Assembly: GCA_030148705.1 (NCBI GenBank)
Contig: JASBSY010000004.1
Span: forward strand, 1-39,498
Source of the DNA: Pukyongia sp.
Lineage (GTDB): Bacteria > Bacteroidota > Bacteroidia > Flavobacteriales > Flavobacteriaceae
Direction of reading: 5' to 3'
DNA: 39,498 nt
The notes beneath the pieces were generated by a model that worked only from the letters and a program-made list of their open reading frames with translations, searched no databases and was not told the origin of the DNA. Numbering within the stretch: the stretch's first letter is position 1; each line of letters begins with the position of its first letter. Positions 1 to 38,307 of this stretch are shown in pieces. The translations under genes and the position numbers were made by a program.

Positions 1-448
1 GGTTGGCCTCAGTAAATGGAACATCGTTAACAAAGTCAACAAGTAACATATAGGCATAAGCCTCAAAGATCTGTGCTACTCCAAGGATCTTTGGGATTCC
101 TTCTCCTCCGGCATCGATATCAGCCTGGTTGATCCCGTCTAATAGATCGACGTTACCAAACATCTGATAGGACTGTTGCCACTCACCCGTTAGGGTAGTC
201 TCATCAACCGCACCGTTGTAATCTCCAAAGAGATACTGCATACGGGTAATGGAACTTGCAGGACCGTTATATCCGCTGAAAATATTACGAGCAAATGTGA
301 TCTGCATATCATTTAAAATGAAATTGGCATCGGCAGATTCACCCGTGATCTCGTTCGGGTCTACTAAAAGATCCAGCTCCAGGGTCTCACAGGCTGTAAA
401 CAGCACAAGCGCAGAAGCAAGAAATGTTATTTTAAATATATTTTTCAT
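1..448 (-). CDS. SusD/RagB-family outer-membrane lipoprotein, 5' part only (cut by window edge)
   Basis: This is the first 149 codons of a SusD-like gene; the rest lies beyond base 1. SusD proteins are surface lipoproteins that cap the SusC channel and bind the nutrient. The N-terminus reads MKNIFKITFLASALVLFTAC, a lipoprotein signal with the lipidated Cys at residue 20. The helical SusD N-domain follows (TRMQYLFGDYNGAV). It starts 19 bases after the susC stop, so the two are co-transcribed. The sequence is almost the same as the first 149 codons of the gene at 37860: 20 base differences in 448 and about four residue differences (Met/Ile, Ile/Val, Asp/Ser, Ile/Leu). The substrate cannot be told from the sequence. 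Confidence 0.93.
   Translation of the reverse strand, partial: MKNIFKITFLASALVLFTACETLELDLLVDPNEITGESADANFILNDMQITFARNIFSGYNGPASSITRMQYLFGDYNGAVDETTLTGEWQQSYQMFGNVDLLDGINQADIDAGGEGIPKILGVAQIFEAYAYMLLVDFVNDVPFTEAN
1..448 (-). repeat. inverted repeat copy A (within susD), partner at 37860-38307
   Basis: By hand alignment 428 of 448 bases (95.5 percent) agree with 37860-38307 read on the other strand, without gaps. The differences are clustered, and the last 60 bases at the window edge are identical. The homology therefore probably continues outside the window. It begins at the ATG; the 19 bases before it have no match in the partner. Confidence 0.97.
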
Positions 449-467
449 AATTATTTTGTTATCAGTT

Positions 468-3400
468 TTAGAATGTTGCTTTTACGCTGAATGAATAACG
501 CTTGTTAGAAGGTCCTGTTTGGAATTCAAGTCCCTGTCCGTTACCAACACCGGTACTCAATGCCTCAGGGTCGATATTGAACGCCTGTGGGATATTGAAT
601 GTACGTACGTATAGGTTTTGTCCGGATACAGAGAATGTTACGTTTCCAAACGGAGTTTTCTCCAGCATTTTTTCAGAAAGCTTGTATGTAAGAGAAACAT
701 CTCTTAGTCGCAGGTGAGAGGCATCGTAGATACCCTGACCTACAGGATCAACAAGGTTGATGAAGTAAACATCATTAGCTCCAATCTGAATTTGGTTCTG
801 AATAGGATTCCCGTTCTCATCCAGTAGTAGCTCTCCTGTGTTAGGGTTAGCCAATAAACCTGGGATTACGAAAGATCCTTCTCTGTTGTCAACATTCACG
901 GTAGTTACACCTCGACGGTAGTACTGAGAAGCAGTTTGAGAGTAGATATCTCCTCCGTGCTGATACTCTAACTGAGCCGAAAGTGAAAGTCCTTTATAAG
1001 TGAAAGTGTTAATGGAAGTCGCATTCCAGTCCGGGTTAGGATCACCAACTGTTTCGATTGGTAAACCAAGTTCATCACTGGAAATGATCTTACCGGTATC
1101 CGGGTTGATAAGTAATACTCCGTCAACACCGGCACCTTCAGCATATTCAAATCCTTCGATAACAGGATTAGATGGGTCATAACGTACCGCATAACTACCT
1201 TTGATAACACCTAGAGGCTCTCCTTCAGACGCGTAGTTACCCAAGCCGATGAAACCTGCAAATGGGAAGGCTTCAACATCACCAAGATCAGTTACTTCGT
1301 TCTCATAGGCAGTGAAGTTATTTCTAACATCCCAGCTAAAGTTCTCGGTTCTGATAGGAGTAAAGTCTAAACCAACCTCAATACCTTTGATCTGGCTCTC
1401 CGCAATGTTATCAGCGATAGAGTTAAATCCTGTTGAAGGGTTTAGCGGACGGCCAGGTACGATCTGGTCCTCGATAATTCTTTTGTAAACTGTTAAGTCA
1501 AGAGCTAATCTTCTGTTGAAAAGATCTGCTTCAGCACCAACCTCGAACTCACGCTGTAGTTCCGGCTCCAGGTCTCTGTTTGCACGAGCCCCAGGCAATG
1601 AGTTGGTAACAACCGGTCCGTTTTCGTTTACGAAAGCAGTGGTTGAAAGTAACAGGTTATCTCTTGTAGAGTAAACACCTGGGAAACGAGCCGATGTACC
1701 GTAAGCAGCACGGAACTTAAGGAAGTTAAGTGCACCGTTGGTATTCACACCATCCAAAGATGTTGGAATAAACGACAGCGACGCTCCAGGGTAGAAAAGA
1801 GATCTGTTTTCCTGCTCCAGTGTAGATCCCCAGTCGTTACGACCTGAAAGTACAAGGAAAAGGAAATTGTCATATTCAAATGTAGCTTCACCATAAGCAC
1901 CGATAATGTTTCTTTCGGCATATCTGTCTAACTGAGTTCCAAAAGCAGGATCGGTATTAAAGTTGTTGGTAAAGTTCTTGTGGTTAAAGAAGTTAAACAC
2001 GATTTGATCGGTACTTACTATACCTGATCGTTCGAAAGTATCTCTTCTCGCGTTAAAACCGGCAACCAAAGACAATCCAAAATCTTCTGTAAACTGAAGG
2101 TTTCCGAAACTTAGGTTGAAGTTGTGGTCATAGATGTAGTTGGAAATATTCGTTGTACGAAGGTATCCTGTGTCATAGTTATCATCTACTGCACCTTTGG
2201 CAGAACGGAATTCCTGAATCTCACTATAGGTATCCAAACCAAAACGGTAAGTCGCTATAATATTATCGGAAATTTCGTAGCTGTTTGTTAACTGTCCGTA
2301 AAAACGGCTGGTCTTTTGCTCACTACCTGCGTAGTTAAGAAGCCAGTACGGGTTCTCCTGGTCACCTCTGTAGTATACACTCGCACCAGTACTTGGGTTT
2401 TCGAAAGGTAGATTTCCAAGATCAACGTTACGAGGAATAAATAAAAGTCGGGTAAATATTGAAAGCGCACCAACTGCGTTGTTTGCAGCAATTGGAGGCG
2501 TGTTTACACGAAGGTTACTATAGTTAGCAGTAGCTGTAACAGAGAACTTGTTCGATAATTTGGTTGTTCCACCCATACCGATATTGTAACGGGTAAGACC
2601 ATTGTTAGGGATATATCCGTCTTCAGTAGTGTAACCAAAGTTTACGTTATACTTACTTCCACCGTCACCAGGCGAACCTGATACGTTTACAGAAGTAGCA
2701 TGACCTAAACCTGTTCTGAAGAAATCCTTTACGTTATTAGGCGCAGCCTCATAAGGAATCTCCAATCCTTCATACTGAGGGAAGATGTCACTTAAAGGTG
2801 CATATGGGTGAGCGATCATAAGGCCCATGTCGAAAGCAGCACCCCAGTTCCCTACGAATCCCGGGTTAGGAGCATTGTTCGATCCCTGACCATAATCATT
2901 CTGGTAATCGGCAAGGTTAGAAATCTCAGTTACGTATACTGATTGAGACAGAGAGATCTCGAACTTCTTGTTCAAGTCTTTCTTACTACCGTTCTTGGTG
3001 GTAATCAGTACAACCCCGTTTCTACCTTGTTGACCGTATAATACAGCAGCACTAAGTCCCTTAAGTACCTGAATAGATTCAACGTTGTTTGGATCTAAAT
3101 CAAGAAAACGGCTACTTGTAACTGCATTACCTGCGGCGAAGTTTCCAGTACCATTATTGGTGCTGGCATCAAATGGAACACCATCAACAATGAAAAGCGG
3201 CTGGTTATCACCATTAATGGAACTCTTGGAACGAATTATAAAGTTCGTACCAGAACCGGTTGCTCCGGAGTTTCCAGTAACCTGGACACCGGCAACTTTA
3301 CCATTAAGGGATCGTACCACGTCGGACTCAGGCTTATTTTCAATAGCCTCAGCTTCAATAGTACTTACGGCATAACCAAGAGTTTTTCGTTCCCTGGCAA

Positions 3401-3857: not shown

Positions 3858-5555
3858 TCAAAAGCGGGAGGAGAGACTTATATGGATTTTTGAGTTTGAA
3901 AATTTGAAATTCTGACCCTCCGAAATTCCGTTGGCTAAATTGAATTTCAAAAGACCTGCTTTTGTGAGCAAACCCATGCCTATTCCGAAACTGTAAAGCT
4001 GTTGTTTTAAGCCGGCGGTGCTATTCTCAAAATACCCCAGATCGATTATGCTGTGAAGATAGAATCCCGGGCTGAACCTGTATCGGTATTCGGAGTTTAG
4101 AACTGTGAAGAGTTCAGCATCGATACTGTTCTCGTTAAACCCTCGAATACTGTTAATACCGCCAAACCTGAATAATTCATTTGTGAGGAATGTATCACTG
4201 AACAGTATGCCGGTAGTGTTTTGAAGATATACTGAATTGTTATAATTAAGATTAAAGATGGAAGCGGCGGTGAGATTGATCCTGATCTGGTCGTCTCTGC
4301 CTTCCTTCAATTCCCTATATCCAATTTCGGAAGAGGCTTCTATTAAACTCTTAACAGGAAACAATGGATCACTTTGTGGTTTGAGTATCTGAAGACCATT
4401 GGTAAAATATCGGGCCGTATAATCCTCCACCGCCGATCCCGCAAGTACATCGTCCAGCAGCTTGCTGGATTCAACTCCTTTAAACCCTATAAACGCAGAG
4501 GAAGCCGGGCTGATCTGATAACTTGTCTTAATGTTTTGTTCGGTGGTTACAAAAGTGCTGTCGCGCTTGAAGATCCTTAATTCCAATTCCAGGCCTATGG
4601 GTGAACGAAATAAATAGGGCATTCGGGCCCTGGCCCTGAAATTCTGTTGTTCGTTCCCGTCGGCCTTATAGTTTACCAGCAACTGCTCACCGTAATTGAG
4701 ATTGTTGTTCAGTTCGAGGTTGAGATAACCGTTAAACTGCAGCTTGTTTGTTTCTTCGTCGGTTGCAAATCCGAGGATGCCGTCGAAGAGATTATTGTTG
4801 CGTTTTTCCAGGTAGAAAAATACGGTTGTCTTGTCTTCTCGAAAGAGTACTTCAGGGCCTTTTAGGGTGCTTACAAAACCCAGACCGTTGAGCAGTTCGT
4901 TCTGGCGATTTAGTTTTTTGCTGTTGAAGTCCTTACCCTTTTTCACCCCGGCATAGTATTTCAGGAACGATCTGGGGAATTTCTCATACCCTTTAATTGC
5001 GATGGAATCGATCTGCCTCTTTTCCCCGCTGGTCATAATAAGCCTGGCCGACATGATATCCGGGTCTTCCTTGTTGAAGTCGGAAAGTTTTATTCTGGCA
5101 AAGACGTTCCCCGATTCGGTCTTGATTGCATTCAGTTTGGTTAGCGCAATTTCGGTCTCTTCGAATGTTAAGACGAACCAACTGTCGGTAATCTGTTTGG
5201 AAACCAGTGAGAGTTCCTTTTTACTGAAATCTGAAGGTTGGTAATAAACTTTAAGGTATTTGTATTTCTTTCCGAAGAAGAGATCCGCCACGAACGTACT
5301 GTCATTTTTTTTTTCGATCGAATTGATCCCGGCTTCCAGGTATCCGAAGCGCTGAAGGATGGCAGGAATAGTGTCGACGGTCTTTTCAATGGTCCTGTAA
5401 TCTGGATACGAGGATTTTAAATTGAGCGTGTCACGCAGGCCCTGGGTCACCTTTATCTCGGCGTCAATTTCCAGATATAGTTCCTGTGAATTAACCTGAA
5501 CGCTGAGAAGGGTATATATATTAAGGTATAGGAATATGTGAAAAAATCGTGTCAA
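3858..5555 (-). CDS. Omp85-superfamily outer-membrane protein with POTRA domain
   Basis: The 565-residue protein looks like a BamA/TamA/ShlB relative. A hydrophobic N-terminus (about residues 4-23) is a likely signal peptide. Residues about 183-250 resemble a POTRA domain (IDSIAIKGYEKFP, then LNRQNELLNGLGFVST). The rest is a beta-barrel. The hallmark Omp85 motif is present as RFGGINSIRGF, with Arg471-Gly-Phe, and the chain ends in Phe. It is too short and has too few POTRA repeats to be the main BamA. A specialised insertase or secretion role is an inference. No ATG lies between the upstream in-frame stop and the signal peptide, so the start appears to be TTG at 5555-5553. It is divergent from the ribosomal cluster. 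Confidence 0.85.
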   Translation of the reverse strand: MTRFFHIFLYLNIYTLLSVQVNSQELYLEIDAEIKVTQGLRDTLNLKSSYPDYRTIEKTVDTIPAILQRFGYLEAGINSIEKKNDSTFVADLFFGKKYKYLKVYYQPSDFSKKELSLVSKQITDSWFVLTFEETEIALTKLNAIKTESGNVFARIKLSDFNKEDPDIMSARLIMTSGEKRQIDSIAIKGYEKFPRSFLKYYAGVKKGKDFNSKKLNRQNELLNGLGFVSTLKGPEVLFREDKTTVFFYLEKRNNNLFDGILGFATDEETNKLQFNGYLNLELNNNLNYGEQLLVNYKADGNEQQNFRARARMPYLFRSPIGLELELRIFKRDSTFVTTEQNIKTSYQISPASSAFIGFKGVESSKLLDDVLAGSAVEDYTARYFTNGLQILKPQSDPLFPVKSLIEASSEIGYRELKEGRDDQIRINLTAASIFNLNYNNSVYLQNTTGILFSDTFLTNELFRFGGINSIRGFNENSIDAELFTVLNSEYRYRFSPGFYLHSIIDLGYFENSTAGLKQQLYSFGIGMGLLTKAGLLKFNLANGISEGQNFKFSNSKIHISLSSRF

Positions 5556-5741: not shown

Positions 5742-6116
5742 ATGCCAACTATTTCACAATTAGTACGAAAAGGAAGAGCCAAAATAACCAAGAAGAGTAA
5801 ATCGGCTGCTTTGGATTCGTGCCCGCAACGCCGCGGTGTGTGTACACGTGTATATACTACTACGCCTAAGAAACCGAACTCTGCAATGCGTAAAGTTGCA
5901 AGGGTTAGGTTAACGAACGGTAAGGAAGTAAACGCGTACATCGGAGGTGAAGGACACAATTTACAAGAGCACTCGATAGTATTGGTTAGAGGTGGAAGGG
6001 TAAAGGATTTGCCGGGAGTTCGGTATCACATTGTGCGTGGCGCATTAGACACCGCTGGTGTTGAAGGCCGTACACAACGTCGATCCAAATACGGAGCAAA
6101 ACGCCCTAAGAAGTAA
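5742..6116 (+). CDS. rpsL: 30S ribosomal protein S12
   Basis: S12 lies at the decoding centre of the 30S subunit and helps control accuracy. The 124-residue length equals that of E. coli. The conserved loop [15 protein letters not shown] keeps Lys43, and [14 protein letters not shown] keeps the second loop with its lysine. Substitutions at these two sites give streptomycin resistance, so this allele looks wild type. It is the first gene of the fused str-S10-spc-alpha cluster. rpsG follows after 22 bases. Confidence 0.99.
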
Positions 6117-6138
6117 CAAAAACTTTTAAAGAGAAGAC

Positions 6139-6615
6139 ATGAGAAAAAGACAAGCCAAAAAGAGACCCCTTTTACCGGATCCCAGGTTTAACGATCAGTT
6201 GGTAACACGTTTTGTGAACAACCTGATGTGGGACGGAAAGAAGTCGGTGGCTTTTAAAGTATTCTACGATGCGATTGATATCGTGGAGGAGAAAAAACAA
6301 GACGACGAGAAAACTGGAGTTGAATTGTGGAAAGATGCACTTTCCAACGTAATGCCACATGTTGAAGTACGAAGCCGAAGAGTGGGTGGTGCTACCTTTC
6401 AAATCCCAATGCAAATACGCCCGGATCGCAAGATCTCTACCGCGATGAAATGGTTAATCCTTTATGCGCGTAAGAGAAACGAAAAATCCATGGCGCAGAA
6501 ATTAGCTGCTGAGATTCTGGCTGCTGCAAAAGAAGAAGGCGCTGCGGTTAAAAAGCGTACCGATACGCACAAGATGGCCGAAGCAAATAAAGCATTCTCA
6601 CATTTCAGATTCTAA
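6139..6615 (+). CDS. rpsG: 30S ribosomal protein S7
   Basis: S7 binds the 3' major domain of 16S rRNA, starts assembly of the 30S head and contacts tRNA in the E site. The 158 residues are of normal length. The N-terminal [19 protein letters not shown] and the C-terminal [15 protein letters not shown] are both family signatures, so the gene is intact. In E. coli S7 represses the str operon by binding between rpsL and rpsG. Here that gap is only 22 bases with no evident structure, so the same mechanism is not supported. fusA begins six bases after the stop. Confidence 0.99.
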
Positions 6616-6621
6616 AAAATA

Positions 6622-8757
6622 ATGGCACAAAGAGATTTAAAATATACAAGAAATATAGGGATTGCTGCGCATATTGATGCCGGTAAAACCACAACTACCG
6701 AACGTATCCTTTACTATACAGGGGTAAGTCACAAAATTGGTGAGGTGCACGATGGTGCAGCTACCATGGACTGGATGGAACAGGAGCAAGAGCGTGGAAT
6801 TACGATTACATCGGCCGCGACTACCTGTACCTGGACGTTTCCTATGGAGAACGGACAACCTACCGAAGATGCTAAAGGATACCACTTTAACATAATCGAT
6901 ACTCCCGGTCACGTTGATTTCACCGTGGAAGTGAACCGATCCTTACGTGTACTCGACGGATTGGTTTTCCTTTTTAGTGCGGTTGATGGTGTTGAACCTC
7001 AGTCTGAAACGAACTGGAGGCTGGCCGATAATTACAAGGTTCCCCGAATGGGATTTGTAAACAAGATGGACCGTCAGGGATCGAATTTCCTAATGGTTTG
7101 TCAGCAGGTAAAAGATATGCTTGGTTCCAATGCGGTGCCAATCGTTTTGCCTATTGGAGACGAGATCGATTTCAAAGGAGTTGTAGACCTGGTTAAGAAC
7201 CGTGCCATTATCTGGCATGACGAAACCCTGGGAGCTACCTTCGATGTGGTTGATATCCCTGAAGAATTAAAAGAAGAAGCGCGTTTGTATCGCGGTAAAC
7301 TTATTGAAGAAGTTGCTGTATACGACGAGAGCCTGCTTGAAAAATATATGGAAGATGAGGATTCTATTACTGAAGACGAAGTGCATGCTGCGCTGCGTGC
7401 TGCCGTAATGGATATGAGCATCATCCCGATGATCTGCGGATCTGCATTTAAGAATAAAGGAGTTCAGTTTTTACTGGACGCGGTTTGTCGTTACCTCCCT
7501 TCTCCGGTGGACAAGGAAGGTATTGTAGGTATTAACCCCGATACTGAAAAAGAAGAGATCCGTAAGCCAGATGTTACTGCACCTTTTGCTGCATTGGCAT
7601 TTAAGATCGCTACCGATCCTTTCGTAGGGCGTTTGGCGTTCTTCCGTGCGTACTCCGGTAGACTGGATGCAGGTTCTTATATCCTTAACAACCGTTCAGG
7701 AAAAAAAGAGCGAATCTCACGTATCTATCAGATGCACTCCAACAAACAAAATGCGATCGATTATATCGAAGCCGGTGATATTGGAGCAGCTGTAGGATTT
7801 AAAGATATTAAGACCGGAGACACCATGTCTGACGAGAAGCATCCTATTGTTCTCGAATCGATGGATTTCCCTGATCCTGTAATTGGTATTGCGGTGGAGC
7901 CAAAAACCAAGGCCGATGTCGATAAACTTGGTATGGCTTTGGCTAAATTGGCTGAAGAAGATCCTACCTTCCAGGTGCGTACAGACGAGGCATCGGGACA
8001 AACTATCATTTCGGGAATGGGTGAGCTTCACCTGGATATTATTGTAGACCGTTTAAGACGAGAGTTTAAGGTTGAAGTAAACCAGGGACAACCACAGGTT
8101 GAGTACAAGGAAGCGATTACCCGTTCGGCCGATCACCGTGAAGTGTACAAGAAACAAACCGGTGGACGTGGTAAATTTGCCGATATCGTGTTTACCTTAG
8201 GACCTGCAGACGATACAAAGGCTGAAGGGCTGGAGTTTGTGAACGAAATCAAAGGTGGAAACATTCCTAAGGAATTTGTTCCTTCCGTTGAAAAAGGATT
8301 TAAAGAGGCGATGAAGAATGGTCCTCTGGCAGGATTCGAAGTAGACAGCATGAAAGTTACGTTAAAGGACGGATCTTTCCACCCGGTGGATTCGGATCAG
8401 TTGTCTTTCGAACTTGCTGCAAAACTCGGATTTAAAGCTGCGGCCAAGGCTGCAGGTGCCGTGATCATGGAGCCTATAATGAAACTGGAAGTAATCACTC
8501 CTGAAGAGAATATGGGTGATATCGTTGGAGACCTTAACCGTCGCCGCGGCCAGGTAAATAACATGGGCGACCGTGCCGGAGCTAAAGTTGTAAAAGCTGA
8601 AGTACCGCTTTCTGAAATGTTTGGATATGTAACAACCCTTAGAACACTTTCTTCGGGGCGTGCAACATCCACCATGGAGTTTTCGCATTATGCCGAAACC
8701 CCATCCAATATTTCACAGGAAGTGATTGCAGCAACAAGAGGAACCGCTAACGTTTAA
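6622..8757 (+). CDS. fusA: translation elongation factor G
   Basis: EF-G is the GTPase that moves tRNA and mRNA through the ribosome and helps in recycling. The 711 residues cover the full five-domain protein. The P-loop AHIDAGKT is at residues 16-23. The G3 motif DTPGH is at 93-97 with the catalytic His97. The G4 motif NKMD is at 147-150. The switch I region ([14 protein letters not shown]) is present, and domain III carries [15 protein letters not shown]. The str-operon position marks it as the main elongation-type EF-G. No tuf gene follows; rpsJ comes next, which fuses the str and S10 operons. Confidence 0.99.
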
Positions 8758-8767
8758 TATTTCAGCA

Positions 8768-9073
8768 ATGAGTCAAAAAATAAGAATTAAATTAAAATCT
8801 TACGATCATAATTTAGTAGACAAATCTGCTGAGAAAATCGTTAAGACCGTAAAGAGTACAGGTGCAGTTGTAACTGGGCCAATACCGTTACCAACACATA
8901 AAAAGATCTTTACCGTATTGCGTTCACCTCACGTGAACAAAAAGAGTAGAGAGCAGTTCCAGTTGAGCTCGTATAAGCGACTGCTGGATATTTACAGCTC
9001 CTCTTCCAAAACCATCGACGCACTCATGAAACTTGAGTTGCCAAGCGGGGTAGAAGTAGAGATCAAGGTGTAA
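8768..9073 (+). CDS. rpsJ: 30S ribosomal protein S10 (NusE)
   Basis: S10 is a 30S head protein and, as NusE, a transcription antitermination factor that links NusG to the ribosome. The start at 8768 gives the standard 101-residue protein beginning [15 protein letters not shown] longer reading from 8726 runs back into the end of fusA and is not credible. [11 protein letters not shown] is the conserved long-loop region. An unusually long gap of 168 bases with a terminator follows before rplC. Confidence 0.98.
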
Positions 9074-9081
9074 TGAGAAAC

Positions 9082-9098
9082 TGAAGCGATTTGCTTCA
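9082..9098 (+). promoter_or_regulatory. hairpin upstream of the rpsJ-rplC terminator
   Basis: TGAAGC and GCTTCA form a 6-bp stem with a 5-base loop (GATTT), nine bases after the rpsJ stop. With TCCG (9106-9109) able to pair to CGGA (9131-9134), and the terminator at 9149-9180, it suggests a folded leader ahead of rplC. The pairing is seen in the sequence; a regulatory role is an inference. Confidence 0.4.
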
Positions 9099-9148
9099 AT
9101 ACATGTCCGGAGCTGCGTGCGAAGGAAAAACGGAAACAAAATAAAATT

Positions 9149-9180
9149 CAGGGCTGAATTTATTTTGGCCCTGTTTTTTT
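9149..9180 (+). terminator. intrinsic terminator or attenuator between rpsJ and rplC
   Basis: CAGGGC (9149-9154) pairs with GCCCTG (9168-9173) across a 13-base loop and is followed directly by seven T residues (9174-9180). This is a classical Rho-independent terminator in the middle of the cluster. I find no good TAnnTTTG promoter between it and the rplC ATG at 9242. Partial read-through (attenuation) is therefore the likeliest way for rplC and downstream genes to be expressed. Confidence 0.75.
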
Positions 9181-9241
9181 AACCTCCGGCGGAAAGGACT
9201 AAAACAAGAGAGAATTAATTAATAACTAATAATAAATAAAT

Positions 9242-9853
9242 ATGTCTGGGTTAATTGGAAAAAAGATAGGGATGACCAGCATCTTTGACGAGAACGGAAA
9301 GAACATTCCGTGTACTGTTATCGAAGCGGGCCCCTGTGTTGTTACCCAAGTCAGAACCGAAGAGGTTGACGGGTATAGTGCTCTTCAACTTGGTTTCGAT
9401 GACAAAAAGACTGCAAGTAAAGCTGCTCAAGGCCATGCCAAGAAAGCAGGTACCGTTGCTAAGCGTCGCGTTGTTGAATTCCAGGGATTTGAAGAAGATT
9501 ACAAATTAGGTGATACGATCACTGTGGAACATTTTATCGAAGGGGAATTCGTGGATATCGCGGGTACTTCAAAAGGTAAAGGTTTCCAGGGGGTTGTAAA
9601 GCGCCACGGTTTTGGTGGTGTGGGTCAGGCGACTCACGGGCAGCATAACCGATTAAGAGCTCCCGGTTCTATTGGAGCCGCTTCGTATCCTGCGAGAGTT
9701 TTCAAAGGAATGAAGATGGCCGGCCAAATGGGGAATGAAAAAGTGAAAGTAGAAAATTTAAGAGTTTTAAAGGTGGTTCCTGAGAAGAACCTTCTTGTTG
9801 TGAAAGGCTGTGTGCCTGGTCATAAGAATTCTTATGTAACGATTCAGAAATAA
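9242..9853 (+). CDS. rplC: 50S ribosomal protein L3
   Basis: L3 is an early-assembly protein whose extended loop reaches the peptidyl-transferase centre. The 203 residues carry the signature [15 protein letters not shown] and [16 protein letters not shown]. The E. coli loop GQNQTPG, whose glutamine is methylated by PrmB, reads GAASYPA here, so that modification site is absent. The start is preceded by an AT-rich leader without a Shine-Dalgarno sequence. The stop overlaps the rplD start by one base (TAATG), which suggests coupled translation. Confidence 0.99.
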
Positions 9854-10482
9854 TGAAGGTAGCGGTATTAGATTTAAACGGAAAAGACACCGGCAGGAAA
9901 GTAGAACTTTCTAAAGAGGTGTTCGGGATCGAGCCAAACAATCATGCGGTTTATCTTGATGTGAAGCAGTACCTGGCAAATCAGCGTCAGGGAACTCACA
10001 AAGCCAAGGAGCGTGCAGAGATTACTGGTAGTACCCGTAAGATAAAGAAGCAAAAAGGAACAGGAACCGCCCGTGCCGGAAGTATTAAGTCCGGATTATT
10101 CAAAGGTGGTGGCCGGATTTTTGGTCCAAGACCGAGAAGTTATTCCTTTAAATTAAACAAAAACCTTAAGCGTTTGGCGCGTCGTTCTGCATTGTCTATC
10201 AAAGCAAATGACAAAGCCATCGTGGTAATCGAAGATCTTAATTTTGACGAGCCGAAATCGAAGAATTTTACTTCAGTATTGAAGTCGCTTGGGCTTGAAA
10301 ACAAAAAGTCTTTGTTTGTGTTGGGAGAGTCGAATAATAACGTATATTTGTCGTCTCGCAATTTGAAAGGTACAGAAGTTATAACTAACTCAGAATTAAG
10401 TACTTACAAAATTATGAATGCAAACAGTGTAGTGCTGTTTGAAGGTTCTTTGGAAGGAATTGAAACGAACTTAAGTAAATAG
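9853..10482 (+). CDS. rplD: 50S ribosomal protein L4
   Basis: L4 lines the peptide exit tunnel with its long loop, seen here as KKQKGTGTARAGSIKS and GGGRIFGPRPRSY. Its 209 residues are standard. In E. coli L4 represses its own S10 operon by attenuation at a leader hairpin and by blocking translation. That makes the terminator at 9149-9180, just upstream of the L3-L4 pair, a natural candidate target, although this is only an inference. It overlaps rplC by one base, and rplW follows after seven bases. Confidence 0.99.
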   Translation: MKVAVLDLNGKDTGRKVELSKEVFGIEPNNHAVYLDVKQYLANQRQGTHKAKERAEITGSTRKIKKQKGTGTARAGSIKSGLFKGGGRIFGPRPRSYSFKLNKNLKRLARRSALSIKANDKAIVVIEDLNFDEPKSKNFTSVLKSLGLENKKSLFVLGESNNNVYLSSRNLKGTEVITNSELSTYKIMNANSVVLFEGSLEGIETNLSK

Positions 10483-10489
10483 AAACAAG

Positions 10490-10780
10490 ATGAATATCTT
10501 AATTAAACCTATAATTACAGAAAAAGCTACTGCCGATGCTGAGTTAAATAACAAGTACGGTTTTGTAGTGAATCCACAGGCGAATAAGGTAGAGATCAAA
10601 AAAGCTGTTGAAGCGGCTTATGGAGTTTCTGTTATCGCAGTTCGCACAATGAATGTCCGCCCGAACAGGAAAACCCGTTATACAAAGACAGGAATCCAGA
10701 CTGGTAAAACAAATGCTATTAAGAAGGCAATTGTACAGGTGGCGGAAGGTGATACAATTGATTTTTACAGTAACATCTAA
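10490..10780 (+). CDS. rplW: 50S ribosomal protein L23
   Basis: L23 sits at the tunnel exit and is the docking site for trigger factor and SRP. The 96-residue sequence starts MNILIKPIITEKAT, the usual family opening. It keeps the C-terminal region with VRTMNVRPNRKTRYTKTG. It lies between rplD and rplB in the conserved S10-operon order. Confidence 0.98.
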   Translation: MNILIKPIITEKATADAELNNKYGFVVNPQANKVEIKKAVEAAYGVSVIAVRTMNVRPNRKTRYTKTGIQTGKTNAIKKAIVQVAEGDTIDFYSNI

Positions 10781-10805
10781 GCAATTAGATATTAATTAGA
10801 CAACA

Positions 10806-11630
10806 ATGTCAGTAAGAAAATTAAAACCTATCACACCAGGTCAGCGTTTTAGAGTTGTAAATGGTTTTGACGCCATTACAACTGATAAGCCGGAGAAGAG
10901 TTTATTAGCTCCGAAAAAGAGATCAGGTGGTAGAAACAGTCAAGGTAAGATGACCATGCGCTACAAAGGTGGTGGTCATAAGAGAAAATACCGAATTATT
11001 GATTTTAAGCGCGACAAGACCGGAATTCCCGGAACTGTGGCGACTATAGAATACGATCCAAACCGTACGGCGTTTATCGCCCTGGTTAATTACCAGGATG
11101 GTGAAAAGCGATATGTAGTCGCTCAGAACGGACTTCAGGTTGGACAGAACATCGTATCGGGCGAAAGCGTTGCTCCGGAGATTGGAAACGCGATGGCTTT
11201 GAGTAACATTCCATTAGGTACTATTATTTCCTGTATCGAATTACACCCCGGGCAGGGAGCTGTAATGGCGCGTTCGGCTGGTGCATTCGCACAGTTGATG
11301 GCCCGAGACAAAAAATACGCTACCGTTAAACTTCCTTCAGGTGAAACCAGAATGATTCTGGCCAGTTGTATGGCAACCATTGGTGCTGTTTCCAACAGTG
11401 ACCACCAGTTGCTTGTATCAGGTAAGGCCGGTAGATCGAGATGGCTTGGAAGAAGACCTCGTACAAGACCAGTTGTGATGAACCCGGTAGATCACCCAAT
11501 GGGTGGTGGTGAAGGGAAGTCTTCAGGTGGACACCCGAGATCTAGAAACGGAATTCCTGCTAAGGGATACAGAACGCGTTCCAGATCGAAAGCGAGTAAT
11601 AAATATATTATCGAACGTAGAAAGAAATAA
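10806..11630 (+). CDS. rplB: 50S ribosomal protein L2
   Basis: L2 is needed for subunit association and peptidyl-transferase centre assembly. The 274 residues are full length. The C-terminal signature reads [18 protein letters not shown]. It keeps the functionally important His of VDH (E. coli His229) but has Met where most bacteria have a second His (HPHGGG). I believe the Met form is common in Bacteroidetes. rpsS begins three bases after the stop. Confidence 0.99.
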
Positions 11631-11633
11631 GCT

Positions 11634-11912
11634 ATGGCAAGATCATTAAAAAAGGGACCTTACGTTCACTACAAGTTAGAGCAGAAAGTTCAGCAAAACG
11701 TTGATTCGAACAAGAAGACCGTTATCAAAACCTGGTCGCGTGCTTCTATGATCACACCCGATTTTGTTGGGCAAACCATTGCAGTTCACAACGGCCGCCA
11801 GTTTGTGCCGGTTTATGTAACTGAGAATATGGTAGGACATAAATTAGGAGAATTTTCACCTACTAGATCATTCCGTGGTCATGCTGGTGCAAAAAATAAA
11901 GGTAAAAAATAA
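11634..11912 (+). CDS. rpsS: 30S ribosomal protein S19
   Basis: S19 pairs with S13 in the 30S head and contacts the A-site finger. The 92-residue protein begins [15 protein letters not shown] and contains the signature [19 protein letters not shown]. It lies in the standard rplB-rpsS-rplV order with very short spacers. Confidence 0.99.
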
Positions 11913-11918
11913 TAGGCC

Positions 11919-12329
11919 ATGGGAGTTCGTAAAAGAGAAAGAGCAGAACGTATCAAGGAAGCAAAGAAAACGCAATACTTTGCCAAATTGAACAATTGCC
12001 CTACTTCACCGAGGAAGATGCGATTAGTTGCTGATCAAGTACGAGGTGAAAAGATAGACAAGGCGCTTAATATTTTGAAGTTTAGTCCGAAAGAAGCTTC
12101 GCGTCGTTTGGAGAAATTGTTGCTTTCCGCCATTGCAAACTGGCAGGCAAAGAACGAAGACGCTTCGATCGAGGATGCAGATCTTTTTATTAAGGAGATT
12201 CGAGTGGACGGCGGGACAATGCTGAAAAGACTTCGTCCGGCACCGCAGGGTCGCGCACACAGAATTAGAAAACGTTCCAACCACGTAACACTGGTTTTAG
12301 GAGCTAACGATAACACACAAAGCAAGTAA
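11919..12329 (+). CDS. rplV: 50S ribosomal protein L22
   Basis: L22 interacts with all 23S domains, and its beta-hairpin lines the exit tunnel near the macrolide site. The 136 residues contain that hairpin as [20 protein letters not shown] with no deletion or insertion at its tip. An N-terminal extension of about 20 basic residues ([20 protein letters not shown]) precedes the usual start of the fold. rpsC follows after three bases. Confidence 0.99.
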
Positions 12330-12332
12330 TAA

Positions 12333-13052
12333 ATGGGACAGAAGACAAATCCAATCGGGAATCGCTTAGGTATCATCAGAGGTTGGGAATCCAACTGGTA
12401 CGGAGGCAACGACTACGGCGACAAACTAGCCGAAGACGACAAGATTAGAAAGTACATCCATGCTCGTTTAAGTAAAGCTAGTGTGTCCAGAGTAATTATT
12501 GAGCGTACGCTTAAGCTTGTAACCGTTACTATCACCACTGCCCGTCCCGGTATTATTATCGGTAAAGGTGGCCAGGAGGTAGACAAGCTGAAAGAAGAGC
12601 TTAAGAAGATTACCGGTAAAGAAGTACAGATTAACATTCATGAGATCAAGAGACCTGAGCTAGATGCGTATTTAGTTGCATCCAGTGTTGCCCGCCAAAT
12701 CGAGAACAGAATCTCGTATCGACGTGCAATTAAAATGGCAATTGCTGCCGCCATGCGTATGAACGCGGAGGGTATCAAGATCATGATCTCGGGACGACTG
12801 AACGGTGCTGAAATGGCGCGTTCGGAGTCTTACAAGGATGGACGTATTCCTTTATCGACCTTCAGAGCCGATATTGACTATGCTTTAGTGGAGGCACACA
12901 CTACTTACGGTAGACTGGGTGTTAAAGTATGGATCATGAAAGGTGAAGTATATGGTAAAAGAGAACTTTCTCCCCTTGTTGGTTTAACCAAAAAAGGAGG
13001 AAAAGGTGGAGCCGGGCGAGGTGGTAATAACAAAGCACGTCGTAGAAAGTAA
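12333..13052 (+). CDS. rpsC: 30S ribosomal protein S3
   Basis: S3 forms part of the mRNA entry channel and helps unwind mRNA structure. The 239 residues carry a KH domain with the [14 protein letters not shown] loop and the C-terminal domain with [18 protein letters not shown] and [20 protein letters not shown] basic, glycine-rich tail ([18 protein letters not shown]) ends the protein. The sequence is uninterrupted and typical. Confidence 0.99.
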
Positions 13053-13070
13053 TTTTTTAAACAGAAGAAA

Positions 13071-13490
13071 ATGTTACAACCCAAGAGAACAAAATACCGT
13101 AAACAACAGAAGGGCCGTATGAAGGGTAACGCCGGTCGAGGTAATCAGCTTGCCTACGGAACCTTCGGTATTAAATCTTTAGACTCGAATTTCTTGACAG
13201 CACGTCAAATTGAAGCTGCGCGTATTGCTGCTACCCGATATATGAAAAGGGAAGGTTCTATCTGGATTATGATTTTTCCGGATAAGCCTATCACTAAGAA
13301 ACCTCTCGAGGTACGTATGGGTAAAGGTAAAGGTGCGGTTGAATATTATGCAGCTGTTGTAAAACCTGGCAGGATTTTGTTTGAAGTATCCGGAGTTCCT
13401 CTGGAAACTGCAAAGGAAGCATTGCGCCTTGCGGCTCAGAAGCTCCCTGTTAAGACGAAATTTGTAATGTCCAGAGATTATCAAGCTTAA
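13071..13490 (+). CDS. rplP: 50S ribosomal protein L16
   Basis: L16 organises the A-site tRNA-binding region of the 50S subunit. The 139 residues start [19 protein letters not shown] and contain [21 protein letters not shown]. The arginine of RMGKGKG corresponds to the residue hydroxylated in E. coli L16. It lies between rpsC and rpmC as in other bacteria. Confidence 0.99.
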
Positions 13491-13501
13491 TTTTTTGAAA
13501 G

Positions 13502-13693
13502 ATGAAACAATCAGAGATAAATAAAGCATCAACAGCGGAACTACAAGAGAAACTTGCAGAATCCAGACAGGCTTATTCAGACCTGCGAATGGCTCACACC
13601 ATTTCACCGTTGGAGAATCCAATTCAGTTAAGAGCTCATCGTAGAACTATAGCTCGAATTGCGACAGAACTAACAAAAAGAGACGAACAATAA
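13502..13693 (+). CDS. rpmC: 50S ribosomal protein L29
   Basis: L29 is a small helical-hairpin protein at the tunnel exit, next to L23. The 63-residue chain (MKQSEINKASTAELQEKLAE) is of normal length. It ends with the conserved RAHRRTIARIATELTKR helix. It lies between rplP and rpsQ. Confidence 0.97.
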   Translation: MKQSEINKASTAELQEKLAESRQAYSDLRMAHTISPLENPIQLRAHRRTIARIATELTKRDEQ

Positions 13694-13710
13694 CGGTACG
13701 AAGCTGAAAG

Positions 13711-13968: not shown

Positions 13969-13970
13969 TC

Positions 13971-14339: not shown

Positions 14340-14352
14340 TACGAAGATCAAA

Positions 14353-14667: not shown

Positions 14668-14669
14668 TT

Positions 14670-15221: not shown

Positions 15222-15224
15222 GAG

Positions 15225-15494: not shown

Positions 15495-15504
15495 AATTAT
15501 AAAC

Positions 15505-15535: not shown

Positions 15536-15554
15536 TTACCGCAAATAAAAATAA

Positions 15555-15956: not shown

Positions 15957-15973
15957 CTTAAAGACAGAAAGAA

Positions 15974-16884: not shown

Positions 16885-16889
16885 GAACT

Positions 16890-22259: not shown

Positions 22260-22261
22260 TA

Positions 22262-22301: not shown

Positions 22302-22317
22302 ATTAAAACAAAATGTC

Positions 22318-33726: not shown

Positions 33727-36309
33727 TTAAAACAATAATTTCAGGGAAATATTAGGAGTAAAGCCAAGAGAAAATTGTTCCACCTTATTCAGCACCGAAT
33801 TCCCTTCCGAATCGTTTTCCAGTAAATAATAGGTGTCCAGAGCATTTCTGCGATCGAAGATGTTCAAAAGTGCCAGGCTTAATTTGGCCGAAAAGGTATC
33901 ATCGAGCTTTCGGGTATACGAGGCAGAGAAGTCGGTTCGAAAAAACTCCTTCAACGTACTGCTGTTTGGACTCATATAATTAATAACCTCTTTCCCGTTT
34001 TTTGTAACGATTTCATTACCAGCAACCGGTTGCGTAAAGGGTAAACCACTGTGGTAATTGCTGCCTACAGAAAATAAAAGGTCGTTCCAGGAATAGGAAG
34101 CTGCAAATGAAAAGGTATGACGCACGTCGAAATTCGATCGGAAGGAAGCCGGCACGAGCGCATTAAACCTATAGGTGTTATCCATATAGGTATAACTTAG
34201 CCAGGTGTTTAGTTTTTCCGTCTTTCGACTAAGGGAGAATTCTGTTCCATAAACAGCATAACTTCCGGCTGCGACTACATCGATAAGTTGGTTTCGAAAA
34301 CCTTGGTTTGCACTGTTAATATTATTCACATTCTTATAAAACCCTTCGATACCAATTCCCCAGTTTTGACTTCTGAAATTTCCCCCCAGGGAGATTTGTT
34401 TACTCTCCAATATTGCCGATTCGGCTGAATTGAGGACGATCCAGGGTTGTGTTTCTATGCCGAGTAAATTATTTCGGACCCGCGTCGTTTGTACTATGGC
34501 CTGATGTTTTAATTCGGCAGTTGCCGAAAGGCTGAATTCCGAGCTTAATTTTTGGAAGATATTGAGTCTAGGTTCGAGGAATTGCGAGTCCAGGTGAGGG
34601 TAATGGGTAAATCGAATCCCGGCGGATAGATGGGTAGCATTATCAAAGAACTTAAGATTGGAATTAAGATACAAACCATTCGAAAAAAGCACATCTCTCT
34701 GTCGCTCGAATTCATTGGTTTCGAAGGGGCTGTCCACGTTTATAATTTCAGTGTCCGTGTACTGATAGCCTCCGTTAAAACTCGTTTCCCGGTTGAGGGT
34801 ATATCGCAGGTCTAATTTAATTTCCTTTTCGTTTACCTCGTTGCGTTGCGACTGTAATTGCCCGCTGTCAATATTTTGGTTACCACCGTTTATTACATAA
34901 TTTACGCTGTTAAAGAGAACCGCCGTATTAAGCTTAGTATTCCAGGTTCGTTCCCAGGATAAACCATGCACCAGGGTTCGCTCCTTTAGTTCGCTTTCAT
35001 TTCGACTTATGGTTGTTTCCCCGGTAAAACGCTCGCTAAAATCCAGTCGGTTGAAGATGGTGAGAAAGTTATACTCAAGCTTGTCTTTGTTGGAAAGCTG
35101 GTATATTCCCTTGAAATTGAGGTCGTAAAAATTAAACGACTCATCGGTTGAGCGTAATCCCTGCGCCGTTTCTGTTTCCAGGTTTGTTACAATGGTATTC
35201 TGAAATACCCTGCTGAAGAATTGCTTATACACGGGATTGCCAATCCCCGTATTAATGGAGGTTCGGCCGGAAAGGTGAAACGCAATTTTTTCGGATGCCG
35301 GGATCTTGGCATAGAATTGTGTACTAATAAAATCGATTGAAGCCGCCCCGGAAACCTGCTCAGGAATTTCGCTGTCGGATAGCATACTAATCACTCCTGA
35401 AACACTCTTACCATACCTGGGGTGGGTGCCATTTTTATAGATTGTAACCTTTTGGGTTAGGTTGGGATTAAAGGCAGAAATAAGGCCGAAAAAATGACCG
35501 CTTTGATACATACGGATGTCATCCCAGAGCAATAACACTTCATCGCTTTTGCCACCGCGAATATTTATCCTGGAAGCAGTTTCATTAAAACTTTCAATCC
35601 CCGGAAGGATTTGTGCTATGCGCAATACATCAGGTTCGATTAGGTTTGGTAGAATTTCAAAATCTTCATTGGAGATAGTGATCGAACCTTCGGAATTTTT
35701 TGAAATTCCCTTGGTGAGGTAGCTGTTTAAAACTACCGTTGGCAGGTAATTAAATTTTTCATCGGTGAAGAGCAGGGGACAATTGGTTTGATCGCTCAGT
35801 TCATTTGCGAAAACCTCCTTTACCTTAAAACCGAGATAGTATACAGATATAGAGGCATTTTCGGCTATGGATTCGATTGTGAATTTCCCGCCGCTGTCTG
35901 TGATACCCTGGAAATTGGAAGCAATTACCGAAGCACCTTGCAGGGGTTCCCCCGTGGAGGTGTCGATAATGGTCGCACAAACCGACACCACCGGTATAGT
36001 GTTCAATTGAACCGCTATATATCGTTCATCGATTCGGTAGAAACGCAGTCCACATTGCTGTTGCAAGGCTTCCAGCGTCGCTTCGAGTGTTTCTGAATTT
36101 GGCTTGTAGGTGCATTGCAGATCTTTTAGATCGCGCCGGTTAAAAGAGAACCGAACATTATGAGTGGCTTCAACATCTTTGAGAAGTCTGATTACGGCAG
36201 AGGGTTCATTTTGAAATTCCTGGGCTGGAAGAATATTGGCAGTGCACAGCAGTAGCAGTAGTAAGAAAAATTTATTCCGAACCGTATGCGCCAGATATCG
36301 TAACGACAT
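33727..36309 (-). CDS. TonB-dependent receptor with STN signalling domain (FecA-like)
   Basis: The 860-residue receptor has a signal peptide (residues 1-29, ending ILPAQ). An STN secretin/TonB N-terminal domain spans about 38-105 (PSAVIRLLKDVEATHNVRFS). A carboxypeptidase-regulatory-like domain spans about 108-190 (VCATIIDTSTGEPLQGAS). The plug carries RINIRGGKSDEVLLLWDDI, and the barrel ends in Phe. In FecA-type systems the STN domain passes the ligand signal to a FecR protein in the inner membrane. Its start lies inside the 3' end of the FecR gene (38-base overlap), so the two are coupled. The ligand is unknown. Confidence 0.93.
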   Translation of the reverse strand: MSLRYLAHTVRNKFFLLLLLLCTANILPAQEFQNEPSAVIRLLKDVEATHNVRFSFNRRDLKDLQCTYKPNSETLEATLEALQQQCGLRFYRIDERYIAVQLNTIPVVSVCATIIDTSTGEPLQGASVIASNFQGITDSGGKFTIESIAENASISVYYLGFKVKEVFANELSDQTNCPLLFTDEKFNYLPTVVLNSYLTKGISKNSEGSITISNEDFEILPNLIEPDVLRIAQILPGIESFNETASRINIRGGKSDEVLLLWDDIRMYQSGHFFGLISAFNPNLTQKVTIYKNGTHPRYGKSVSGVISMLSDSEIPEQVSGAASIDFISTQFYAKIPASEKIAFHLSGRTSINTGIGNPVYKQFFSRVFQNTIVTNLETETAQGLRSTDESFNFYDLNFKGIYQLSNKDKLEYNFLTIFNRLDFSERFTGETTISRNESELKERTLVHGLSWERTWNTKLNTAVLFNSVNYVINGGNQNIDSGQLQSQRNEVNEKEIKLDLRYTLNRETSFNGGYQYTDTEIINVDSPFETNEFERQRDVLFSNGLYLNSNLKFFDNATHLSAGIRFTHYPHLDSQFLEPRLNIFQKLSSEFSLSATAELKHQAIVQTTRVRNNLLGIETQPWIVLNSAESAILESKQISLGGNFRSQNWGIGIEGFYKNVNNINSANQGFRNQLIDVVAAGSYAVYGTEFSLSRKTEKLNTWLSYTYMDNTYRFNALVPASFRSNFDVRHTFSFAASYSWNDLLFSVGSNYHSGLPFTQPVAGNEIVTKNGKEVINYMSPNSSTLKEFFRTDFSASYTRKLDDTFSAKLSLALLNIFDRRNALDTYYLLENDSEGNSVLNKVEQFSLGFTPNISLKLLF

Positions 36310-37189
36310 TCTTGTTATCTATTCTGTAGTTGAGGTTGAATGGTAGTGTAACCGCTTGAAGTGCCGCTTCAAGATCATCATTGGGGAAGCTACCGCTAAA
36401 ACGTAAATTTACATCAATATTTTCAGTTATGATGCTTATATCATACTGCTTTTCCAGTTCTTCTATTACATAGCGGAGCGCTATATCTTCAAAGGCACTT
36501 TCGTTGTATAACCAGCCGGGACGTGAAACATAGGTTTGTCCCAGTTCCAGCTCGCCATTGGTAATACCTGCGGTTCGGCCTTCGGTAAGCTCGATTGAGA
36601 CTTCGCCTTTTGTGAGGCGCACCAGTCCTTCGAAGCAGCTTACCGACATTGAATCGCCGCGTGAATAGACATTGAACTTGGTTCCCAGCACCGTCACAAT
36701 TCCGGCATCAGTAACCACGGAAAACGTCTCGCCTTCTTCAACCTCAAAAAATGCTTCCCCTTCCAGGGCCAGTGACCTGTTGGAATTCCATTTAAATTTT
36801 TTATAACTGATTCGGGAATCGTTGTTCAGCTGAACCTGTGACCGGTCGGGTAATTCAAATTGTAGGCGCACGGCAATATCGGTTCTGTGGGAAACTTCAA
36901 GGTTGGAAATAAAGAAATAAGACGCAATAGCCAAAACCAGGATGGCTGCAACTTTGTAGATAAAAGGCAAGCTACGCACTTTAGGTTTGCGGGCTCGATT
37001 AGCATCTTTCAACTTTAACTTCAGTTCCTTCAGCGTAATCTCCCGGTCGGGCCGGGGAAGGTCGATTGACTTAACAAAACTGTCGATTTTCTGGTATGAC
37101 GAAAACTCCGGAAGTGTTCTAAAAACCTCAAATTCTTCCGGAGTTAATTCGTCATTTAACCATTTATCCAATAAATCTTTCTTTTTCAT
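36272..37189 (-). CDS. FecR-family anti-sigma factor
   Basis: The 305-residue protein has a short cytoplasmic region (1-70, beginning MKKKDLLDKWLNDELTPEEF). One transmembrane helix follows at about 75-96 (FIYKVAAILVLAIASYFFIS). The periplasmic FecR beta domain covers about 105-200 (FELPDRSQVQLNNDSRISY, GTKFNVYSRGDSMSVSCFEG). The C-terminal DUF4974-type, STN-like domain is at about 235-300. Such proteins hold the ECF sigma factor inactive until the receptor signals. It lies between the sigma gene (58 bases upstream) and the receptor gene (38-base overlap). Confidence 0.95.
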   Translation of the reverse strand: MKKKDLLDKWLNDELTPEEFEVFRTLPEFSSYQKIDSFVKSIDLPRPDREITLKELKLKLKDANRARKPKVRSLPFIYKVAAILVLAIASYFFISNLEVSHRTDIAVRLQFELPDRSQVQLNNDSRISYKKFKWNSNRSLALEGEAFFEVEEGETFSVVTDAGIVTVLGTKFNVYSRGDSMSVSCFEGLVRLTKGEVSIELTEGRTAGITNGELELGQTYVSRPGWLYNESAFEDIALRYVIEELEKQYDISIITENIDVNLRFSGSFPNDDLEAALQAVTLPFNLNYRIDNKNVVTISGAYGSE

Positions 37190-37247: not shown

Positions 37248-37757
37248 TCAAATATTTTCAATGCTGCGACGGAGACTCTCCAGGGCATCGTGTATTCGTT
37301 TTCCCGCGGCTTTTTCTGAAATCCCCAGGATTTCCGCGATCTCCTTGTATTTTTTACCTTCTACCCGACTCATCAGGAAAGCAGTTCGCTGGACTTCAGA
37401 AAGTTGTTCGATGGCCCTGCTTAATCGTTCTCCAAACTCTTTTTCTTCCAGCATATATTGCGGGGACTGTTCATCTATCCGCGTTTTTTTCTGGTTTTGG
37501 TAGGTGAAGACCACCTTTTGATGTGCCACCACATTGAGGAACAAGTTATTCGCTACCGTATAGAGGAAGGATTTGGCTTTTAAGGGTGGAATTTTCCTGC
37601 AGTTTTCCCATAACCTGATAAAGGCTTCCTGGGTTATGTCCATTGATCGGGCGCGGTTACCACTTTTAAAATAGATGAAATTTTGCAAGGAGGGTGACAA
37701 GTCTCTAAAGAGCTTATCGAAGGTGCGTTCATCACAGCAGTCGTTCTCGTTTTCCAT
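37248..37757 (-). CDS. ECF-type RNA polymerase sigma factor (FecI-like)
   Basis: The 169-residue protein has sigma region 2 at about 14-80 (MDITQEAFIRLWENC) and region 4 at about 112-165 (LSEVQRTAFLMSRVEGKKYKEIAEILG). There are no regions 1.1 or 3, so it is an ECF sigma factor. With the FecR protein and the STN-bearing receptor it makes a complete cell-surface signalling set. Its targets are usually its own receptor and neighbouring transport genes. The closest untested candidate is the divergent susD at 37860, 102 bases away. Confidence 0.95.
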   Translation of the reverse strand: MENENDCCDERTFDKLFRDLSPSLQNFIYFKSGNRARSMDITQEAFIRLWENCRKIPPLKAKSFLYTVANNLFLNVVAHQKVVFTYQNQKKTRIDEQSPQYMLEEKEFGERLSRAIEQLSEVQRTAFLMSRVEGKKYKEIAEILGISEKAAGKRIHDALESLRRSIENI

Positions 37758-37772
37758 TGCATAATATTTCGA

Positions 37773-37805
37773 TTGTAAACTTATTGAAAAAAAAATTTAT
37801 TTCTG
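37773..37805 (+). promoter_or_regulatory. possible promoter of the right-hand susD
   Basis: TTG (37773-37775) is followed after 22 bases by TATTTCTG (37798-37805), 7 of 8 to TAnnTTTG. It lies in the 102-base divergent gap between the sigma factor and susD and would leave a leader of about 48 bases. Match and spacing are only moderate. Confidence 0.35.
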
Positions 37806-37859
37806 CAGGTAGTAATTTGTGTTGTGAGCTGTTTTATTACTGAACACAAAAATTTCCCT

Positions 37860-38307
37860 ATGAAGAATATATTTAAAATAACATTTCTTGCTTCTGCGCT
37901 TGTGCTGTTTACAGCCTGTGAGACCCTGGAGCTGGATCTTTTAGTAGACCCGAACGAGATCACGGGTGAATCTGCCGATGCCAATTTCATTTTAAATGAC
38001 ATTCAGGTAACATTTGCTCGTAACATTTTCAGCGGATATAACGGCCCTGCAAGTAGCATTACACGTATGCAGTATCTCTTTGGAAGTTACAACGGTGCGG
38101 TTGATGAGACTACCCTAACGGGTGAGTGGCAGCAGTCCTATCAGATGTTTGGTAACGTCGATCTATTAGACGGGATCAACCAGGCTGATATCGATGCCGG
38201 TGGCGAAGGGATTCCTAAGCTCCTTGGCGTAGCACAGATCTTTGAGGCTTATGCCTATATGTTACTTGTTGACTTTGTTAACGATGTTCCATTTACTGAG
38301 GCCAACC
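37860..38307 (+). repeat. inverted repeat copy B (within susD), partner at 1-448
   Basis: This is the plus-strand member of the inverted pair that brackets the window interior, 37.4 kb apart. Homology starts at the ATG and runs at least to 38307. How far it continues cannot be judged because copy A is cut at base 1. Confidence 0.97.

Follow-up and report, generated by a model that had tools for sequence, protein, structure and literature searches.

The stretch of DNA analysed here, called the window below, is a 39,498-nucleotide contig of Pukyongia sp. (assembly GCA_030148705.1, contig JASBSY010000004.1) in which two inverted copies of a susD gene stand on either side of the ribosomal supercluster. 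We call the copy that follows susC copy A and the copy that is divergent from an ECF-type sigma factor gene copy B. In our reading, to which we give a probability of about 0.87, these are two full-length inverted susD genes flanking about 37 kb, which go back to an old duplication and have been kept alike by recurrent gene conversion. The evidence comes from the window, from six further genomes of the genus and from outgroup loci.

Self-BLAST of the whole window (word 11, E ≤ 1e-5) returned the susD pair as the sole repeat, so the match is not due to chance. Positions 1-449 on the minus strand match 37859-38307 on the plus strand over 449 bp with 95.5% identity (E 0.0). An earlier note on this DNA had described inverted copies at 1-448 (−) and 37860-38307 (+), and its count of 428 identical bases out of 448 was reproduced. 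Its layout is also right: the left susD follows susC, the right one is without susC, and the pair brackets about 37.4 kb with the ribosomal supercluster, the two start codons being separated by 37,411 bp. The repeat begins 1 base before the start codon and at its right end extends at least 4 nt beyond the stop codon. The note had further remarked that the copy is still identical at the window edge. The 79 bases of the repeat at the left edge do match exactly, and since the window is the complete contig C17 of an assembly of 24 contigs (2.89 Mb), that edge is a contig break.

The contig ends explain how much of each copy can be read. The last 141 bases of C17 (39358-39498) are the first 141 bases of contig C1 and of contig C6. 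When all 48 contig ends of this genome were compared, 12 of the 15 overlaps were exactly 141 bp, and we take this uniformity as the signature of a k-mer assembler; 141 is among the default k values of MEGAHIT. Beyond the overlap, C6 continues with a lipoprotein-like gene and then rlmB (SpoU methylase domains), followed by genes that are presumably rhomboid and rarA. In C1 a terminator-like hairpin comes first and then a TonB receptor/FecR/sigma cluster. The first 449 bases of copy A are thus read directly, and from C1 and C6 it is clear that the final 141 bases are common to the two susD tails. In the 3' part of copy B in the window, the assembler has probably merged the two copies. Because the tails are alike and apparently one merged 3' part was kept, the assembly fits either orientation of the segment between the copies. 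Other contig ends of the same assembly also share 141 bp (C12/C15, C16/C5, C18/C8/C2 and C4/C6 among others) and mark additional repeats.

The pair was followed through seven genomes of the genus, G000 (the source of the window) to G006, which include Aureitalea sp. L0-47 and four metagenome-assembled genomes. A SusD protein search matched twice in each of G000 and G006 and once in each of G001, G003 and G004, but it found nothing in G002 or G005, an unevenness that is expected because repeats get merged or dropped in assemblies. G006 is a single contig and holds both copies. Copy A lies there at 531110-532744 (+) in the row susC-susD-lipoprotein-rlmB, copy B at 487558-489192 (−) is divergent from the sigma gene, and the ribosomal cluster lies between them, the window supercluster being collinear with 525852-508791 of that genome. 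The order of the shared genes in the G006 segment is the order in the window. Two inverted homologous copies are therefore found on one chromosome, on one contig in the window and again in G006. One contig in each of G001 and G005 spans the segment from sigma gene to susC and ends inside susD in exact inverted repeats, 127 and 95 bp long, respectively. G002 (L085/L086) and G005 (L087/L088) each have a pair of contigs with an identical beginning, the 3' end of susD (127 and 95 bp, respectively); one contig of the pair heads to the lipoprotein-rlmB side and the other to the B side. Taken together, copy B is present in all seven genomes and both copies are evidenced in five (G000, G001, G002, G005 and G006).

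As judged by sequence comparison, A and B evolve in concert. In G006 they are 99.37% identical over 1,587 bp. Only 5 of 259 four-fold degenerate sites differ between the two copies of G006, and 7 of 64 in the visible 5' part of G000, while 102 of 176 differ between copy B of G000 and copy A of G006. In a tree of nt 49-447 (seven rows) the A and B copies of G000 group together with support 100/100 and those of G006 with 92/96; in a tree of the whole region from nt 49 (six rows) the G006 pair has 98/96 and stands apart from G003 and G004. A constraint grouping the two A copies was rejected (p-AU 9.9e-59). The copies cluster by genome and not by locus, as recurrent gene conversion would cause.

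The first 48 nt, which encode the signal peptide, behave differently. Copies A and B share 28 of these 48 positions in G006 and 27 of 48 in G001, and in the next 120 nt they share 119 and 120 positions, respectively. The B leaders are similar across species: 46 of 48 positions are identical between G006 and G003, and 40-46 of 48 among G006, G003 and G004. Copy-specific leaders, with B leaders common across species, indicate that the duplication predates these species and that the mature region has been overwritten since. Within-genome copies are thus more alike than their between-genome counterparts despite the older duplication. This comparison uses both copies complete in G006, partial copies in G000 and G001, and the end k-mers in G002 and G005. 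The encoded proteins hardly vary either, with 4 of 149 residues differing in the visible part of G000 and 9 of 544 in G006, leader included. The 20 A/B differences of G000 are spread unevenly, one at nt 6 and the others at nt 141-369, which looks like a patchwork of conversion tracts.

Outside the coding region the copies keep their own surroundings. Just upstream of copy B, the G000 genome has the block CTGTTTTATTACTGAACACAAAAATT at 37829-37854, and a block like CTGTTCTATTACTGAACGCAAAAAT is found a few bases before the copy B start codon in all seven genomes. Downstream of copy B a GC-rich hairpin followed by a T run was read by eye in 7/7 genomes; the one from G000, the only one folded, gave −21.1 kcal/mol with a z of −4.7. 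Downstream of copy A, a lipoprotein-like gene starts shortly past the stop codon in all five readable genomes. Copy B therefore looks like a one-gene unit and copy A like part of a row. The copy B block was also considered as a marker of a regulon, a candidate that was dropped because a single genomic match leaves sharing with other genes unsupported.

Several observations weigh against this picture or narrow it. Only copy B of susD is visible in G003 and G004. A search for susC at E ≤ 1e-150 gave no match in G002 and G003 and only a partial one in G004. For G002 and G005 the comparison of copies is limited to the k-mer-sized contig ends (127 and 95 bp). In the window genome the middle of copy A is unassembled, and its identity to B there is deduced from the merging. 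The leader of G000 is homogenised too (47/48), so the signal-peptide boundary fails in this genome. A misassembly of G006 could copy one repeat into the other; this is disfavoured because its A and B differ at 30 positions, of which 20 lie in the leader. With up to 3 mismatches allowed, the copy B block matches once in the whole G000 genome, at the B site itself, and a promoter role for the block and control of copy B by the neighbouring sigma factor are what we infer. Finally, conversion is read from sequence patterns, and inversion itself was never observed. The proposal in the note that recombination between the copies would flip about 37 kb is thus supported as far as the copies exchange sequence, but the inversion itself is not shown.

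We suggest the following course of events. The susD duplication is older than the sampled species of the genus. Copy A, in the row susC-susD-lipoprotein-rlmB, probably occupies the ancestral place, and copy B appears to stand alone, divergent from the ECF sigma gene and with a conserved upstream block and a terminator-like hairpin of its own. Conversion, which may proceed by RecA-type homologous recombination, would be limited to the stretch that A and B still have in common, which in G006 and G001 begins just ahead of the lipobox; upstream regions, downstream tails and usually signal peptides stay copy-specific. B is probably kept similar to A because its product, though under different control, has to match the same SusC and the same ligand. 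Some exchanges would be expected to resolve as crossovers and flip the segment as a by-product, and flipped cells are probably rare and counter-selected. A flip would swap the downstream tail: susC-susD would then be followed by the hairpin, and the lipoprotein-rlmB tail would come after the sigma-linked upstream region. The note had assumed a greater consequence, namely that the SusD partner of SusC is exchanged. This idea had to be rejected: the 5' part stays with susC, the two SusD proteins are nearly the same (4/149 and 9/544 residues differ), and a flip swaps the downstream tail only.

Sister genomes had been proposed as a check on the orientation. The junctions are readable in two of the seven genus genomes, both junctions in G006 and the B junction in G004; in the other five the orientation is unreadable. 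G006 has susC-susD-lipoprotein and sigma-susD-hairpin, and the B junction of G004 agrees, so that both genomes show the same orientation. Muriicola jejuensis (L082) has one susD in 21.6 kb, with the order rpsL-susC-susD and rlmB 3.9 kb downstream, which is the orientation seen in G006 and G004. Aquimarina (L076) has susC-susD-rlmB, and rpsL is absent from the 6.7 kb available upstream; in Roseivirga (L079) and Lewinellaceae (L081) neither rpsL nor rlmB lies beside susC-susD within flanks of about 10 kb. Ten outgroup loci were annotated, four with flanks of about 10 kb and six in which one or both flanks were no longer than about 1.5 kb, and among the latter rlmB is visible in L062; loci L077, L078, L080 and L083 were left out of the annotation. 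The orientation seen is probably ancestral, a view that rests mainly on one outgroup genome. The lack of flips in two readable genomes is too small a sample to judge whether selection removes flips. We also looked at the direction of replication in G006, where dnaA is at 2.263 Mb. The GC skew of 20 sampled 20-kb stretches plus three from the segment pointed to no clear origin or terminus. Negative skew at 320-340, 560-580, 640-660 and 800-820 kb would place the ribosomal genes, which are on the minus strand there, on the leading strand. No conclusion on replication direction is drawn, because skew in this region follows the coding strand.

Other explanations have to be weighed against gene conversion between two old copies. 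The pair could be a working inversion switch, with both orientations at appreciable frequency in the population and the flip changing the tail behind susC-susD versus the sigma-linked region. Long near-identical inverted genes with recurrent exchange are what such a switch would need, the difference in tails (lipoprotein-rlmB versus terminator) would matter, and the G000 assembly is compatible with either isomer. A yeast region with homogenised inverted genes is orientation-polymorphic across its genus (PMC9731477). We nevertheless consider the switch unlikely: both readable genomes have the same isomer, which matches the gene order of one outgroup, and each flip would turn the whole ribosomal block, presumably at a cost. 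A still bolder and more doubtful idea is a reversible 37-kb flip/flop of the ribosomal supercluster, driven by constant susD conversion, that ties the uptake system to growth capacity. If this is true, a flip puts the lipoprotein-rlmB tail behind the ECF-sigma-linked region and reverses the ribosomal operons relative to replication.

The remaining explanations are much less probable than either of these. The note itself had named an assembly join at a repeat as an alternative, and the second susD might indeed be a false join or come from a strain mixture, as both ends of the window are assembly breaks whose overlaps have the size of a k-mer. Such a join accounts for the contig end but fails for the pair. 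The 5' parts differ at 20 positions yet in only 4 of 149 residues, contamination is listed at only 0.06% for G000, the single contig of G006 holds both copies, and a B locus with its own block and hairpin is common to seven genomes. G006 and the shared B locus rule out an artefact as the whole explanation, and little credence is left to it. Site-specific inversion in the style of the Bacteroides SusC/SusD loci, with a dedicated recombinase and short sites, involves the same protein families, and invertase-driven SusC/SusD variation has been published. Here, however, an entire gene is repeated and not a short site, the differences are scattered along part of that gene, and the expressed SusC/SusD sequence does not vary in the way of such systems (4/149 and 9/544 SusD residues). 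No recombinase family was found in a scan of 22 of the window genes and 12 neighbouring genes. With no short site and no recombinase in this subset of genes, the mechanism is highly improbable. Equally improbable are independent recent duplications of susD in each species without conversion. They would likewise give similarity within a genome, but in 7/7 genomes copy B occupies the same place and has a similar block and hairpin, and the B leaders are common to G006, G003 and G004 (40-46/48). The shared B-specific leaders and flanks contradict them.

Repeated genes known to evolve in concert include tuf and rRNA genes. The closest parallel to the susD pair is Salmonella tufA/tufB, two inverted, distant and near-identical genes homogenised by intrachromosomal gene conversion (PMC5485169, PMC8262849). 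For tuf, a link with chromosomal inversion has been demonstrated, whereas the susD pair is known from sequence patterns and no inversion was seen. At one selected site, 'almost half' of the conversion events between the inverted tuf genes were accompanied by inversion (PMC5485169). The other report quotes 'up to a quarter' for tuf and gives inversion in 5/59 for test cassettes (PMC8262849). With 8% to almost half of events in the Salmonella systems as a yardstick, inversion is expected among the products, and flips should arise here as well. Unlike tuf, susD codes for an outer-membrane uptake lipoprotein with copy-specific signal peptides in most readable species, and its copies lie about 37-42 kb apart and bracket the ribosomal supercluster. 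In layout the locus resembles the 24-kb flip/flop region of Saccharomyces, a multi-gene segment between concertedly evolving inverted genes found genus-wide; that eukaryotic region holds other genes and occurs in nature in both orientations, whereas for susD one orientation is seen in two genomes (PMC9731477). Judged by analogy, the susD pair resembles the tuf pair in how it works and the yeast region in how it is laid out.

Two further systems are related by their proteins. Nakayama-Imaohji and colleagues in 2009 reportedly found Bacteroides fragilis SusC/SusD loci that are inverted by a site-specific invertase. These loci share with ours the SusC/SusD genes and inverted DNA, but B. fragilis uses a site-specific invertase, and here exchange appears to be homologous, over the whole gene, with SusD sequence hardly varying. 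The B. thetaiotaomicron SusCD pair BT_2263/BT_2264 is a distant relative of the SusC and SusD of the window. BT_2264 (5fq6_B) is the best solved relative of the window SusC (E 7.6e-102), and BT_2263 is among the matches of the window SusD (E 1.5e-9) without being the top match. BT_2263/BT_2264 imports peptides, and we know of no duplicate inverted susD for it. No published description of the window's susD pair appeared among the matches listed in searches on inversion, SusD, gene conversion and isomers, which covered few subscription papers.

An outer-membrane uptake lipoprotein thus appears to evolve in concert in all five genomes that can be compared, in two of them over ends of about 100 bp only. 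The limits of conversion almost match functional boundaries: the mature protein is common, and upstream regions, tails and mostly signal peptides are separate. Placed around the ribosomal block, the pair offers a natural test of inversions made by conversion and of selection against flipped ribosomal operons. It also explains why several assemblies of the genus have contig breaks at the same place.

The genes of the window are listed in Table 1. Families were assigned by scanning 22 window genes (14 with Pfam; 8 with NCBIfam alone, E ≤ 1e-10) and 12 neighbouring genes (Pfam). The copy B product has SusD family features, namely the PF12771 domain and a leader ending in FTAC, which we take to be the lipobox. 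In the supercluster seven sampled genes (rpsL, rpsG, fusA, rplC, secY, rpoA and rplQ) were confirmed by NCBIfam models.

Table 1. Genes and other features of the window, with positions, strand and supporting evidence.
Feature	Position	Strand	Evidence or remark
susD copy A, 5' part	1..449	-	149 codons visible, runs off contig; follows susC; translation
susC, SusC/RagA TonB-dependent transporter, 1089 aa	468..3737	-	Pfam CarbopepD_reg_2, Plug, TonB_dep_Rec_b-barrel
Omp85/ShlB-like outer-membrane protein, between susC and rpsL	3858..5555	-	Pfam Omp85 E 9.4e-7, ShlB, POTRA
Ribosomal supercluster rpsL, rpsG, fusA ... rplC ... secY ... rpoA, rplQ	5742..22830	+	
carA	22919-24040		Pfam/NCBIfam
eno	24037-25323		Pfam/NCBIfam
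gltA	25503-26789		Pfam/NCBIfam
Arginine-deiminase/DDAH-like genes	26846-27772, 28744-29685		Pfam/NCBIfam
DUF2867 gene	29700-31121	-	Pfam/NCBIfam
argS	31942-33726	+	Pfam/NCBIfam
TonB-dependent receptor, 860 aa, ECF/FecR cluster	33727..36309	-	Pfam Plug E 1.2e-8
FecR-type anti-sigma factor	36272..37189	-	Pfam FecR E 2.2e-18
ECF-type sigma factor gene, divergent from susD copy B	37248..37757	-	Pfam Sigma70_r4_2, Sigma70_r2
Divergent intergenic region, 102 bp	37758..37859	+	
susD copy B, complete, 544 aa, SusD-like_2	37860..39494	+	Pfam PF12771 E 3.4e-29

Some minor observations concern these genes and their neighbours. The rplQ product (22318-22830) has 170 aa, and the NCBIfam 'sunset domain' L17 model also matched it, below cut-off. 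Three FecR genes per genome match at E ≤ 1e-40 in all seven genus genomes and are parts of related sigma/FecR/TonB-receptor clusters. Such clusters lie in G000 at 33727-37757 of the window and, on contig C1 (locus L007), at 202-4202 and from 9722 on. The FecR beside copy B has 52-55% identity to its counterparts in the other six genus genomes and at best ≤ 40% among 24 other genomes searched.

The genes past the copy B hairpin differ between genomes. G003, G005 and G006 have two TPR histidine kinases, a LuxR-type response regulator and a 227-aa gene of unknown function; on the G003 B side the set lies at 187-5359 of L084, the only locus of this kind on which Pfam was run. Part of the TPR histidine kinase/LuxR set is visible on the contigs of G001 and G004. 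G000 and G002 have the next TonB receptor in place of the histidine-kinase set. At 4309-8126 of L007 lie two genes with repeated units, recognised by eye and by cross-matches, and long glycine runs; the first had no Pfam match, and the second gave META and GH43_C lipocalin-like matches.

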